Assembly (NCBI GenBank): GCA_021324775.1
Contig: JAJPIM010000030.1
Span: forward strand, 62,001-126,000
DNA: 64,000 bases
Direction of reading: 5' to 3'
Origin: Gemmatimonadota bacterium
Lineage (GTDB): Bacteria > Gemmatimonadota > Gemmatimonadetes > Gemmatimonadales > Gemmatimonadaceae
This document shows, piece after piece, positions 3,753 through 15,694 of the stretch (position 1 is the first letter of the stretch; each line of letters starts with the position of its first letter). A program made the position numbers and the translations under genes. The notes beneath the pieces are model-generated. The model was not told the origin of the DNA, did not search any database, and was given only the letters and a program-made list of their open reading frames with translations.

Positions 3753-5788
3753 GCCGGTTCGCCGGTGCGCGTGAGGTTGCGGTACCGAGCGAGGGCCCAC
3801 AGCGGGAAGTATTGCGCGTAGCCGTGGTACTTGAGGAAGAACACGCGTGGGAATCCGGGCGCATTGAACCACGGGTCGTTCCACCCGCCGTCGGTTTGCT
3901 GGTGGCGGAGCAGGTACAGAATACCGCGCCGCACCTCGGGCGAGTGGACGTCACCGCTGTCCATGAGACCGAGGAGCGCCCACGCCGTCTGGCACGCGGT
4001 GCTGTGGCACGACCGCGGGACCGGGCCCGCATCCCAATAGCTCTCGCAGCCCTCGCCCCAGCCGCCGTCGGCGTGTTGCCGTTCCTTGAGCCACGCTGCG
4101 GCGCGCGCGATGCGGGGCGCGTCTTCGTCGCGTCCGGTGAGCGTGAGGGCCGCGAGGACCGACCAGGTGCCGTAGATGTAGTTCGTTCCCCACCGGCCGA
4201 ACCATGGGCCGGCGTCTTCCTGTTCCCGCCGGAGGAACGCGAGACAATTGGCGAGGGCGGCCCGGTCGCGTGCGCGGTCCGCGCGGGCGAGGGCGACCGC
4301 GCAGCGTCCGCTCACATCGCTGGTCGGCGGATCGAGGAGCGCGCCGTGATCGGCGAAGGGGATCTCGTTGAGGTAGCGGAACGTGTTGTCCGCATCGAAC
4401 GCGCCGAACCCGCCGTTGCGGCTCTGCATACCTGCGATCCAGTCGACGGCGCTAGCGAGCGATTGCGCGCGGCGTTCCGTGCGGGGGGCACGAGTGAGTG
4501 CCCACACGACAGCGGCCGTGTCATCGAGATCCGGGTAGTGCGCGTTGGAGAACTGGAACGGCCACCCGCCGCCCCGCACATCGGGGCGAGCGGCGCGCCA
4601 GTCTCCGGCTGCCTGATCGGGCAACTGCCGCGAGATCAGCCAATCGAGTGCGCGATCGACCGGTTCCGACGGGGCGCCATCGGCGACCTCCTGGATCGCG
4701 AGCACAGCCAGCACGGTATCCCAGACCGGTGAGACGCAAGGCTGGCACCACGCCGCGTCCTGATCCTCGACGACCAGCCGGCGCAGCGCGGTGCGCGTCT
4801 GCCGGCGATAGGGATGATCGGCCGGGTAGCCAAGTGCGGCGAGGGCTTCGTGGGCATTGACCATGGCGGGGAAGATTCCGCCGAGGCCATCGATGCCGTT
4901 CAGCCGCGCGATGAACCAGCGGGCGGCGCGGAGCAGCGCGGCGCGGCGGCCGCGGGCGGGAATCTTCGGCTCGCTGCGTCTGCCGAGGGCGTCCAGGTGC
5001 GTGAAGGCACGCTGGAGGTGCGACCGGATCGGGAAGTAGTCGCGCTCCTCGTCGGGATGCGTGACGAACAACTCCTGAATGCCGATGCGCAGCGGATTGC
5101 GTGCGCGTTCCTTGAGACTGCACAGGATCGCGAGCGGGACCATGACCGTGCGGGACCAGTACGACACCTTGTGCAGGTGGAACGGGAACCAGCGAGGCAG
5201 GAGCACGATCTCGACGGGGAGGAACGGTACGCCGCGCCAGGGGATCTGCTCGAAGAGGGCGAGCGTGATCCGGGTGAAGACATTGGCGCGCGCGGCGCCT
5301 CCCCGGGCGAGGATCGCGTCGCGGGCCGCTCTCATGTGCGGGGCGTGTTCGTCGTCGCCCGCGAGCTTGAGGGCGTAGTACGCCTTGACGGAGCAACTGA
5401 GATCGAGTGCTCCACCGGGGAAGAGGCACCATCCGCCGGCCGCGGTCTGCGTGGCGCGCAGCGATCGTGCGAGCCGCGCTTGCAGCGGTGTCTCGATCTC
5501 GTCCATGAAGTGCATCATCAGGATGTATTCGGCCGTAATGCTGGCATCGGCCTCGAGATGAAAGCACCAGAAGCCCTCGCGGTCCTGGAGTTGTGCGAGG
5601 CATGTAGAGGCGCGCGTGATCGCGGCGGCGAGCGAGTGGGGGTCGATCGTGGCGGACGCGCCGTGAGCGGGCGCACCGTGAGCGGGTGCACCGTGAGATG
5701 GCGCGCCAGCCGGCACAGCCTCGGTGGTGGCGGAGGATGCCGGCGTGGAGATACCGGTGGCGTGGGTGGACAGGAGCGTGGGCCTCAT
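3749..5788 (-). CDS. shc: Squalene-hopene cyclase
   Basis: Shc cyclises squalene to hopene/hopanol at the membrane. The 679-residue protein has the class II terpene-cyclase acid motif DLDD at residues 420-423. It also has several QW-type repeats (for example QSRNGGFGAFD, RQHADGGWGEG and RHQQTDGGWND) and the non-polar segments expected of a monotopic membrane enzyme. The N-terminal ~50 residues are unlike the family: they carry tandem GAPAH repeats (see 5658-5702) and are probably a disordered extension, or the true start is further in. The gene lies 74 bp after sqs and overlaps hpnG. Confidence 0.96.
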   Translation of the reverse strand: MRPTLLSTHATGISTPASSATTEAVPAGAPSHGAPAHGAPAHGASATIDPHSLAAAITRASTCLAQLQDREGFWCFHLEADASITAEYILMMHFMDEIETPLQARLARSLRATQTAAGGWCLFPGGALDLSCSVKAYYALKLAGDDEHAPHMRAARDAILARGGAARANVFTRITLALFEQIPWRGVPFLPVEIVLLPRWFPFHLHKVSYWSRTVMVPLAILCSLKERARNPLRIGIQELFVTHPDEERDYFPIRSHLQRAFTHLDALGRRSEPKIPARGRRAALLRAARWFIARLNGIDGLGGIFPAMVNAHEALAALGYPADHPYRRQTRTALRRLVVEDQDAAWCQPCVSPVWDTVLAVLAIQEVADGAPSEPVDRALDWLISRQLPDQAAGDWRAARPDVRGGGWPFQFSNAHYPDLDDTAAVVWALTRAPRTERRAQSLASAVDWIAGMQSRNGGFGAFDADNTFRYLNEIPFADHGALLDPPTSDVSGRCAVALARADRARDRAALANCLAFLRREQEDAGPWFGRWGTNYIYGTWSVLAALTLTGRDEDAPRIARAAAWLKERQHADGGWGEGCESYWDAGPVPRSCHSTACQTAWALLGLMDSGDVHSPEVRRGILYLLRHQQTDGGWNDPWFNAPGFPRVFFLKYHGYAQYFPLWALARYRNLTRTGEPA
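5658..5702 (-). repeat. Three 15-bp tandem repeats inside the shc N-terminus
   Basis: Three consecutive 15-bp units (plus-strand form GCRCCGTGAGCGGGY, the third slightly diverged) encode a GAPAH-type pentapeptide repeat just after the shc start. As 15 is a multiple of three, copy-number change would keep the frame. Confidence 0.85.
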
Positions 5789-12974: not shown

Positions 12975-14582
12975 TCATCCCTGGGCGGCCGAGTCGCGAT
13001 CGAGGTACGGCGCGCCGGCCAGGGTCAGGAAATCGGCGAAGGCGTCATCGAGCACCAACTGATCGAGCAGGGTGGCGGCGTCCGCGAGGCGGCCAACGCC
13101 CGTGGTGCGCGAGCGCAGCGCAGTGACAGCCGCATCGCGTTCCCTGGCGTACATCGCATCGGTGAGCGGGGCTCCGCCATCGATGGGCACGCGGTGGCGC
13201 CGCCACTGCCAGAGCTGGGCGCGCGAGATTTCCGCCGTCGCCGTGTCTTCCATGAGATTGTCGATTCCGACCGCGCCTGACCCGTCGAGCCACGCCGCGA
13301 GATATTCGAGTGCAACGCGGATATTGGTGTGGACGCCGGCGGCGCTGACACCACTTCCGGGAATCCGCACATCGAGGAGCGGTGCGGTGTCGCCGCCGGG
13401 AGGGGTGGCGGAGCGTGAGCCTGCGTGGCTGACGTGATGCGCGAACGCTTCGCGTGCGACGGACACGAGGTCCGGGTGGGCGATCCAGGTGCCGTCGAAG
13501 CCACGCGCCACTTCGCGCAGCTTGTCTTCGCGCACCTTGGCGAGCGCCGTGCGGTTGACCTCCTCATCGCGGCGGCTCGGAATGAAGGCCGCCATGCCGC
13601 CGATGGCCTGGGCGCCGCGCCAGTGGCAGGTACGCGCGAGGCGTTCCGCGTAGGCCTGCATGAACGGCACGGCCATGGTGACGAGGGACCGGTCCGGCAG
13701 GACGAAGGCGGGATCCGTGCGGAATTTCTTGATGACGCTGAAGATGTAGTCCCAGCGTCCCGCGTTGAGAGCGGCGCCGTGCTCGCGCAACTCGTAGAGA
13801 ATCTCTTCCATCTCGAACGCGGCGAGGATCGTTTCGATCAGGACCGTGGCCCGGATCGTTCCGCGGGGAATGCCGAGGGCGCCCTGCGCGGCAACGAAGA
13901 CATCATTCCAGAGGCGTGCCTCGCGGTGGCTCTCCATCTTGGGCAGATAGAAAAACGGTCCCGCGCCGCGTGCGGCGAGCGTCCGCGCATTGTGGAAGAA
14001 GAACATCCCGAAGTCGAAGAGACTGGCCGACACCGGCTGGCCGTCGACGCGCACGTGTGATTCCGTGAGGTGCCAGCCCCGGGGCCGCATGAGGAGCGTG
14101 GCGAGCCGGGCAGCGAGGCGGTACGTGCGGCCATCGGGACTCTCGTAGGAGAGCGTGCCCTGGACCGCGTCGATCAGGTTCGCGTGGGCGCGGACGACAT
14201 TGGGCCAGGTGGGCGAAAGAGAGTCCTCGAGATCGGCCATGAATCCCGACGCGCCGGAGTTGAGCGCGTTGATCATCATCTTGCGGTCCGCGGGGCCGGT
14301 GATCTCGACGTGGCGTTCGGCGAGCGCGGGCGGCGGAGCGGTGACGGACCAGTCGCGCGATCGGATCTCGGCGGTCTCTGGCAGCAGGCCGGGCCGCGCA
14401 CCGGCATCGAGGGCGGCCTGGCGGGTGGCGCGCGCGTCCAGCAGGCGGAGCCGGGTGGGATTGAACGCGCGGTGGAGCCGCGCGACGAACGCCAGGGCTT
14501 CTGGCGTCAGGACTCGTCCCGCGTCCGGCTGCACTTCGCCGGCGATCTCGACCTGCCCTGCGGATTCAGACACGTTGGTCAC
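12975..14582 (-). CDS. aceB: Malate synthase A
   Basis: Condenses glyoxylate and acetyl-CoA to malate, the second enzyme of the glyoxylate bypass. The 535-residue length fits isoform A. Conserved stretches include [12 protein letters not shown], the RATVLIETI segment holding the catalytic Arg, [15 protein letters not shown], and [15 protein letters not shown] holding the catalytic base Asp region. Isocitrate lyase is not adjacent and was not seen in the window. The regulator of the branch point, AceK, is at 43855. Upstream (14583-14800) lies a short gap with an 11-bp repeat. Confidence 0.94.
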
Positions 14583-14708: not shown

Positions 14709-14800
14709 CGTGACGGGAGCAACGGCCGCTCGTCCTAGCTAGTGCGCGATTGGGCGTCGCAGCATATGTTCCAACGCCTGCTGACGAGGATCTGTCGTCG

Positions 14801-14977
14801 ATGAGTGCTCAAGCCGTTGCTCTTCCCCTGCCCCGTCCCTGGGTCGCGCCAACGTTGACCGAGCATGGTCCGTTGGCGGCGCTGGCGCACGCGACCGCGG
14901 GCGCAGTGCCGATGGTTGCGGCGCTGCTGCAGATCACGGTGAGCTGCGTGCAGAACCCGCCTTCCTGCACGACCTGA
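14801..14977 (+). CDS. Small peptide with lasso-RiPP-type leader (58 residues)
   Basis: The peptide has the leader pattern recognised by RiPP recognition elements in lasso-peptide systems: Trp14-x-x-Pro17-x-Leu19-x-x-x-Gly23-x-x-x-x-Leu28, close to the YxxPxLxxxGxxxxLT consensus. The T normally at 29 is Ala; Thr32 follows. The C-terminal part is hydrophobic, then SCVQNPPSCTT with Cys49 and Cys56. There is no Asp/Glu at positions expected for a lasso ring, so if this is a RiPP its maturation would be of another kind, or it matches only the 'lasso RiPP leader-containing' orphan family. I chose ATG 14801 over an upstream in-frame start at 14750 because an AGGA precedes it by about 10 bases. No B1, B2 or C maturation gene is nearby. 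Confidence 0.6.
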   Translation: MSAQAVALPLPRPWVAPTLTEHGPLAALAHATAGAVPMVAALLQITVSCVQNPPSCTT

Positions 14978-15040: not shown

Positions 15041-15496
15041 CTACAATTTGCGCCGGATCCACGTACGGGCGCGGGTGAACAGGTCGAACGCCCAGACCAA
15101 GAGGCGGACCGACGTAGCCATTGGGGGTCGCGGCATCGGCGGAAAGCGCTCCTCGATATAGCGGCGCCGGGCGATGCAGGCCGGGCATTGGGCGAGGTGA
15201 GCGAGGACGGCGTCCATGCGTGTGCGGCGGTCGCGGGATGATTCGGCATCCGTGCTTTTGCCAGCGTGCAGCGCGTGCAACTCGGCGCATTCCGGAAGCC
15301 CGCTCGCAGCGAGGGCGGCGTCGCGGTCGAGCATGCCGGCGCGCCACGTGAGCCACTGGACCACCCGGCGTGCAGGCTTGATGCGCCCGCGCTCCCAGGC
15401 GATCACCACGGCGGGTGTGAGATTCAGTTCGGCGGCCATGCCGTCGTGAGTGAGGCCGAGGCGCTGGCGGGTCGCGATGAGCTCTTCAGGAGACAC
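15041..15496 (-). CDS. HTH (XRE-like) regulator fused to an anti-sigma-type zinc finger
   Basis: The ~151-residue protein has an N-terminal helix-turn-helix (ELIATRQRLGLTHDGMAAELNLTP, ending WERGRIKPAR). A zf-HC2-type zinc finger follows, with ligands Cys70, His100, Cys104 and Cys107 (HLAQCPAC). The C-terminal segment is short, basic and amphipathic (RLLVWAFDLFTRARTWIRRKL) and could touch the membrane. A regulator combining DNA binding with an anti-sigma zinc finger is the reading; its partner is unknown. It converges on the RiPP-like peptide gene, 63 bp away. A GTG at 15532 would give 163 residues. Confidence 0.72.
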   Translation of the reverse strand: MSPEELIATRQRLGLTHDGMAAELNLTPAVVIAWERGRIKPARRVVQWLTWRAGMLDRDAALAASGLPECAELHALHAGKSTDAESSRDRRTRMDAVLAHLAQCPACIARRRYIEERFPPMPRPPMATSVRLLVWAFDLFTRARTWIRRKL

Positions 15497-15694
15497 GGAC
15501 GAAGCATGGCCCAGCCGCCGGGCGCCCGCCACCCGTTCGGCACTGTCAGTTGCCAGCCCCCTGCTCGGGCGGGTCGTGCGCCGGGCGATCGAGGCGTATT
15601 ATCGTCCCGACCGATACCGCCTATCCGGCACCGCGATCAGGGACGGGCTTCGTCCCGGGATTCGGCTGCAGCCCATCATCCGCCAGAGGGACCC

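Follow-up and report, generated by a model that had tools for sequence, protein, structure and literature searches.

A probable precursor peptide of an HPr kinase-type RiPP in Gemmatimonadaceae, encoded apart from its candidate modification cassette

The small gene at 14801..14977 of the window (the whole 64-kb stretch of DNA analyzed here) raises the question of whether a peptide with a lasso-type leader and no ring acceptor is the precursor of a RiPP and, if so, which enzymes act upon it. The ORF lies on the plus strand and encodes 58 residues (MSAQAVALPLPRPWVAPTLTEHGPLAALAHATAGAVPMVAALLQITVSCVQNPPSCTT) ending in SCVQNPPSCTT, as the sequence-only reading had described. Its assignment as a precursor peptide gene is based upon the ORF itself, its orthologues, their dN/dS and the kinase linkage of its relatives. 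A purine-rich GAGGA (14786..14790, plus strand) resembling a ribosome-binding site is located 10 nt 5' of the ATG, with AAGGA in its place in the nearest congener. The same ORF has an alternative, longer start at a TTG at 14750; the ATG is favored because a three-genome alignment places a 1-nt indel just 5' of it that breaks the longer frame between the present species and the nearest congener. On one side of the peptide gene lies a malate synthase gene (12975-14582, minus strand), transcribed divergently from it, and on the other a helix-turn-helix/zinc-finger-like gene (15041-15532, minus strand). Promoter and terminator scans around 14801-14977 returned zero matches.

Homologous peptides, which on the sequence-only reading might have been missing from relatives, are present in both other congeneric genomes. 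The orthologue of the nearest congener (E = 9e-28) is 84% identical, and that of the third congeneric genome (E = 6e-18) is 69% identical over the matched part and 65% over the whole. Compared in the same frame with these two orthologues, the peptide has dN/dS values of 0.14 and 0.21, and third codon positions take 21 of 31 and 28 of 56 nucleotide changes, respectively, a majority for the nearest pair. A three-way alignment of the congeners displays a conserved leader, L-P-R-x-W-x-x-P-T-L-T-E-H-G-P-L, followed by a conserved stretch, GAVP-x-VAALLQI, and both Cys residues. With orthologues in both congeners, low dN/dS and GAGGA before the ATG, the 58-aa ORF is more than a chance occurrence; it is a genuine gene under purifying selection. 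The neighborhood of the gene is identical in the nearest congener, and in the third congeneric genome the peptide and malate synthase genes still point away from each other, across two intervening genes. This separate location is therefore old in the genus. Among the weak matches in single-sequence searches of relatives were three short peptides, from other genera, whose leaders are of this type; most other weak matches were dropped as long ORFs or other frames.

The leader pattern W/YxxPxLxxxGxxxxL, noticed from the sequence, is indeed present (W14-x2-P17-x-L19-x3-G23-x4-L28), and the peptide is its single match among start-to-stop ORFs of 25-120 aa in the six frames of the window. The motif alone is unconvincing as a lasso leader, since the peptide scores 12.6 bits against the curated model NF033521 (lasso_leader_L3), for which the cut-off is 19. 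Conservation was counted in an alignment (A3) of 20 precursors. In this alignment the leader recognition segment, R-x-W-x-x-P-x-L-x-x-H-x-x-L, spans R12-L28 (14834..14884, plus strand); W14 and P17 are invariant among the 20 precursors, and R12, L19 and H22 are conserved in at least 90%. Most of the leaders end in L-T-Q. The penultimate Thr found in most relatives has been lost in this genus, being A29 here and Val in one congener. The predicted core comprises residues 31-58 (14891..14974, plus strand), with a boundary drawn from A3 and the leader register of lasso peptides and of linear polyphosphorylated peptides, or LPPs (PMC10368454, PMC13381572), assuming a lasso-type cleavage one residue past the penultimate leader position. 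It consists of hydrophobic VAALLQI and then S-C-x6-C. The resulting two-cysteine loop, S48-C49 to C56 (14942..14968, plus strand; A3), has a Ser adjoining the first Cys. Both Cys are present in all three congeners, and two Cys occur near the C-terminus in 16 of the 20 family peptides, at spacings from C-x4-C to C-x9-C and with a Ser or Thr no more than two residues from the first Cys. Searching the PDB with the precursor profile yielded no useful match.

Three PqqD-family proteins of the genome score above the Pfam cut-off, which contradicts the possibility, allowed for by the sequence-only reading, that the genome holds no RRE proteins. One is the B1 protein of a complete lasso cluster on contig C43. 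Another, on C5, was rejected as a partner since it is part of a PQQ biosynthesis cluster. The third (PF05402) is a discrete RRE on contig C18 (L037:8813-9085, minus strand), where it forms an operon with an HprK-like kinase recognized by homology (L037:10318-11166, minus strand). Between them is an NTP_transf_5 protein (PF14907; L037:9082-10290, minus strand), homologues of which occur in both congeners, and a gene for a 777-aa lipoprotein-like product without a Pfam match (L037:11219-13552) directly precedes that of the kinase. A DinB-like gene follows the cassette; an exporter and a dedicated leader peptidase are absent from it. The N-terminal part of the C18 lipoprotein is homologous to lipoproteins that adjoin precursor genes elsewhere, four of the five giving E values between 2e-9 and 2e-4. 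Lipoprotein and kinase genes are separated by 52 bp, at the position that the precursor gene occupies in other cassettes. The precursor slot is empty on C18, and the cassette has no local precursor.

The catalytic residues of the kinases are conserved, with an invariant His, Walker-A Lys and Asp and a near-invariant adjacent Asp (H100, K122, D139 and D140). These match the His-Lys-Asp-Asp set reported for lasso kinases (PMC9266682). The best PDB matches of the cassette kinases are HPr kinases (E about 1e-4), and the cassette RREs match the lasso RRE TbiB1 (E = 3e-22). A fold model of a related kinase (JAICUE010000002.1; three-row alignment) had a mean pLDDT of 37 and was unusable.

Linkage between the peptide and the kinase was examined in 179 Gemmatimonadaceae genomes. 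The peptide profile (A1) combined the congener peptides with three non-congener peptides, which had been selected for the similarity of their leaders at a stage when the kinases of those genomes had yet to be looked at; the C18 kinase served as a separate query. Strong matches to the peptide profile (E<=1e-4) and to the kinase (E<=1e-50) occur in the identical 18 of the 179 genomes, from seven genera. The hypergeometric P of about 4e-25 is uncorrected for relatedness and hence far too small; the adjacency itself, which recurs in six other genera, does not depend on this nominal value. A peptide with this leader is encoded, in each of the 15 genomes outside the genus, on the same strand as the kinase and within about 2.5 kb of it, in most cases immediately ahead of it (28 bp away in G033). 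Thus, the peptide belongs to a family that is elsewhere genetically linked to a kinase/RRE cassette. A scan of genome contigs with the kinase alignment gave one clear named cassette, in the Gemmatimonadaceae MAG JAICUE010000002.1. A phylum-wide search of 395 evenly drawn genomes with the full precursor profile gave strong matches solely within Gemmatimonadaceae.

Gene calls in the relatives' cassettes were made with our own codon-usage script rather than a published gene finder. The commonest gene order is a secreted lipoprotein of ~400-440 aa, the precursor, the kinase, the RRE and a beta-propeller lipoprotein; the kinase is the gene that every cassette has, and a lasso cyclase was found in none of those inspected. 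The secreted lipoproteins, which lack a Pfam match, adjoin precursor and kinase in most cassettes (L103:2392-3723; L104:11629-12831; L114:2461-3735; L115:2602-3864) and may be a partner or a target of the product. In a second form, found in four genomes (G035, G146, G129 and G004), a radical SAM/SPASM-type enzyme is encoded before the kinase (L106:8872-9861; L109:8982-9971; L114:1450-2457; L115:3880-4887). Precursors of these radical SAM cassettes end in [C/G]S[T/Q]GF[C/F]P. Cassettes of G129 and G004 have an extra B2-type protein, after the RRE in G129 and accompanied in G004 by an ORF that combines NTP_transf_5 and propeller repeats. This ORF (L160:3919-5778, after B2) may be a fusion or an assembly frameshift. 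NTP_transf_5 is encoded in the present genome's own cassette, in both congeners and in G004, and was not seen in most other cassettes. Genus g32 has a second, divergent cassette beside NusG-like and glycosyl-transferase-4 genes (L119, L120, L121, L116), a setting that recalls the polysaccharide loci of LPPs and paeninodins. The precursors of this second cassette end in QCFD...PxxC.

Taken with the C18 genes, the family data favor one of the two options offered by the sequence-only reading, a non-lasso product matured in trans by enzymes encoded at a distance, over reuse of the leader motif: an RRE, an HprK-like kinase and an NTP_transf_5 protein are encoded together on another contig, and homologous kinase and RRE genes adjoin homologous leader peptides in other genera. 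We consider it likely that the ORF encodes the precursor, leader plus core, of a linear, RRE-guided, HPr-kinase-type RiPP of Gemmatimonadaceae, with the partnership in this genome argued from homology and co-occurrence. The C18 RRE is expected, from its homology and the motif, to bind the W-x-x-P-x-L-x-x-H leader and would position the core for the kinase encoded in its operon; kinase homology and linkage suggest that a core Ser or Thr is then phosphorylated. The best candidate sites are T32 and S48, since at no other core position do all three congeners have a hydroxyl residue (T/T/S for position 32). The NTP_transf_5 protein may next elaborate or extend the phosphate, as is thought for PsmN in pseudomycoidin. 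A protease would remove the leader, and the lone B2 protein of the separate lasso cluster is a possible candidate; the two conserved Cys may close to a disulfide or other cross-link outside the cytoplasm. The lipoprotein partners would suggest a link with the cell surface. The precursor gene appears to have been displaced from the cassette in this genus, leaving its slot empty.

Three other explanations have to be weighed against this one. B1, B2 and C genes are not near the peptide gene, as the sequence-only reading had stated, but all three occur elsewhere in the genome: the cluster on C43 (L036:7363-12669) is complete, with an isopeptidase-like gene (plus strand), a precursor of its own (MKSYTTPQLTNAGRLVETTKQFVAGTKDPVDRIHLLGMAPGSVGFQL), cyclase C, B2 and B1. 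It is the only lasso cluster found in the genome and contains the genome's single B2 protein. The peptide could thus be a second, orphan lasso precursor matured by the C43 machinery, and B2 is encoded in 18 of 18 peptide-bearing genomes versus 83 of 179 overall. We regard this as highly improbable, although B2 alone may take part. The earlier observation that the core lacks an Asp or Glu for a lasso ring holds; because E21 is the last acidic residue of the peptide, a ring acceptor is absent in any register, and a lasso product was rejected. Relatives of the peptide in other genera accompany the HprK/RRE cassette, not a cyclase. In the RRE tree, which is small and has long branches, the cassette RREs group together (support 94/99), separately from the B1 proteins that belong to the lasso clusters of the same three genomes. 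The lasso precursors of the three congeners have Tyr leaders (YTTPQL, YATPAL and YETPAV/YEAPAV), versus Trp in the present family; the lasso clusters of the other two are at L161 and L162. That of congener G001 contains two Tyr-leader precursors (L161:3863-3997 and 4170-4304) and an extra small PqqD-like ORF (L161:8118-8426).

The same precursor and cassette could instead be paired for a chemistry other than phosphorylation, such as radical SAM thioether formation or the transfer of a nucleotidyl or glycosyl group, the kinase-like fold having been put to a new use. The radical SAM enzymes of the four cassettes, NTP_transf_5 in the congeners and G004, and the Cys pair of most family peptides are in keeping with this. 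It is nevertheless unlikely, as the kinase is the component that every cassette shares and retains the catalytic residues of lasso kinases, while radical SAM is absent from most cassettes, that of the present genome included. Quite improbable, in our estimate, is that the leader motif has been reused in a small peptide that undergoes no RiPP maturation, or that the gene is a decaying precursor relic in this genus. Such a reading draws on the lack of a promoter or terminator match nearby and on two features that also count against a kinase-type RiPP, namely that the peptide gene lies apart from the cassette in all three congeners and that the penultimate leader Thr has been lost. Against it are the purifying selection on the peptide, the conservation of its leader and Cys pair, and the retention of the cassette genes in the same three genomes.

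Among known systems, the linear kinase-type reading is best compared with the LPPs (LppA/K/B/N/S/D) described from Paenibacillus alginolyticus in May 2026 (PMC13381572). These have a YxxPxVLxHQ... leader, a discrete RRE, an HprK-like kinase for which multiple phosphorylation of a single core Ser was demonstrated, an NTP transferase, a signal-peptidase-like leader peptidase and an MsbA-like exporter; they have no cyclase, often lie beside lasso clusters and are stated to be restricted to Bacillota (PMC13381572). Shared features are a [Y/W]xxPx[V/L]xxHxx(hydrophobic) leader, the discrete RRE, the HprK-like kinase, the lack of a cyclase in the cassette, a variable core, the NTP transferase (in this genus), a co-resident lasso cluster and, in some relatives, a position beside polysaccharide-type genes. 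Compared with the LPP leader consensus YxxPxVLxHQxIxFETxxS, the Pro, the His and one hydrophobic position agree, whereas Trp replaces Tyr and FET is absent; the Thr occurs in most relatives but not in the present peptide. Further differences are the Gemmatimonadota host, the precursor unlinked in this genus, the secreted lipoprotein and beta-propeller partners, the two-Cys tail, and the radical SAM or B2 proteins of some cassettes. An archaeal-type signal peptidase I (LppS; TIGR02228) gave no match over the cut-off in the present genome, and no MsbA-like exporter was found among the gene calls of the cassettes inspected. The present system would work most like the LPPs, but we do not file it as one because of the missing signal peptidase and exporter, the other partners, the Cys pair and the radical SAM or B2 proteins of some genera.

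Phosphorylated lasso peptides of the paeninodin/pseudomycoidin type (PadeK, ThcoK, PsmK/PsmN; PMC9266682) share the HprK-like kinase with His-Lys-Asp-Asp, the RRE, the nucleotidyltransferase, the Trp leader and, in two cassettes of the present family, B2. They differ in having a macrolactam cyclase, which the present cassette lacks, and a ring Asp/Glu and a conserved C-terminal Ser, neither of which is found here. The HPr-rel-A system (TIGR04352/TIGR04353) and the SynChlorMet cassette (TIGR04248/TIGR04249) also combine an HprK-related kinase with a PqqD-family protein. The present proteins fall below the cut-offs of both: for HPr-rel-A, the kinase scores 34.5 bits versus 200 (TIGR04352) and the RRE 33.1 versus 35 (TIGR04353), and for SynChlorMet the scores are 23.3 versus 125 for ScmC (TIGR04249) and 15.4 versus 100 for ScmD (TIGR04248). 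The orphan peptides of NF033521 are similar in having a short leader motif without adjacent lasso genes; the score below that model's cut-off sets the present peptide apart. Literature searches did not turn up any description of the cassette from Gemmatimonadota.

The residue that decides the choice of RRE in Bacillota is Tyr in the leaders of LPPs and Trp in those of paeninodin lasso peptides (PMC13381572). In the three congeneric genomes, Tyr is found in the lasso precursors and Trp in the kinase-linked family. This pairing, the reverse of that in Bacillota, is an observation on the leaders, and a corresponding RRE preference is predicted from them. The chances seem to us about even that these genes represent a novel family of RiPPs from outside Bacillota, one that is RRE-guided, HPr-kinase-modified and free of a cyclase, with a Trp leader, a two-Cys tail and sometimes a radical SAM enzyme, coexisting with a Tyr-leader lasso pathway under a reversed Trp/Tyr code, and with the precursor uncoupled in one genus.

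An orphan leader peptide thereby gains a named set of enzymes and a testable partner. Cluster-based RiPP mining would miss this peptide because its precursor gene is not beside the enzymes. A kinase-based, cyclase-free RiPP type that was reported in 2026 as restricted to Bacillota would be extended to another phylum with different accessory genes. If true, Gemmatimonadota would have reached in mirror image the Trp/Tyr leader code by which Bacillota keep two pathways separate. The question of RRE cross-talk, and how it is avoided, can be addressed directly in an independent lineage whose lasso and kinase pathways share a genome and have opposite leader residues, Tyr and Trp, respectively.
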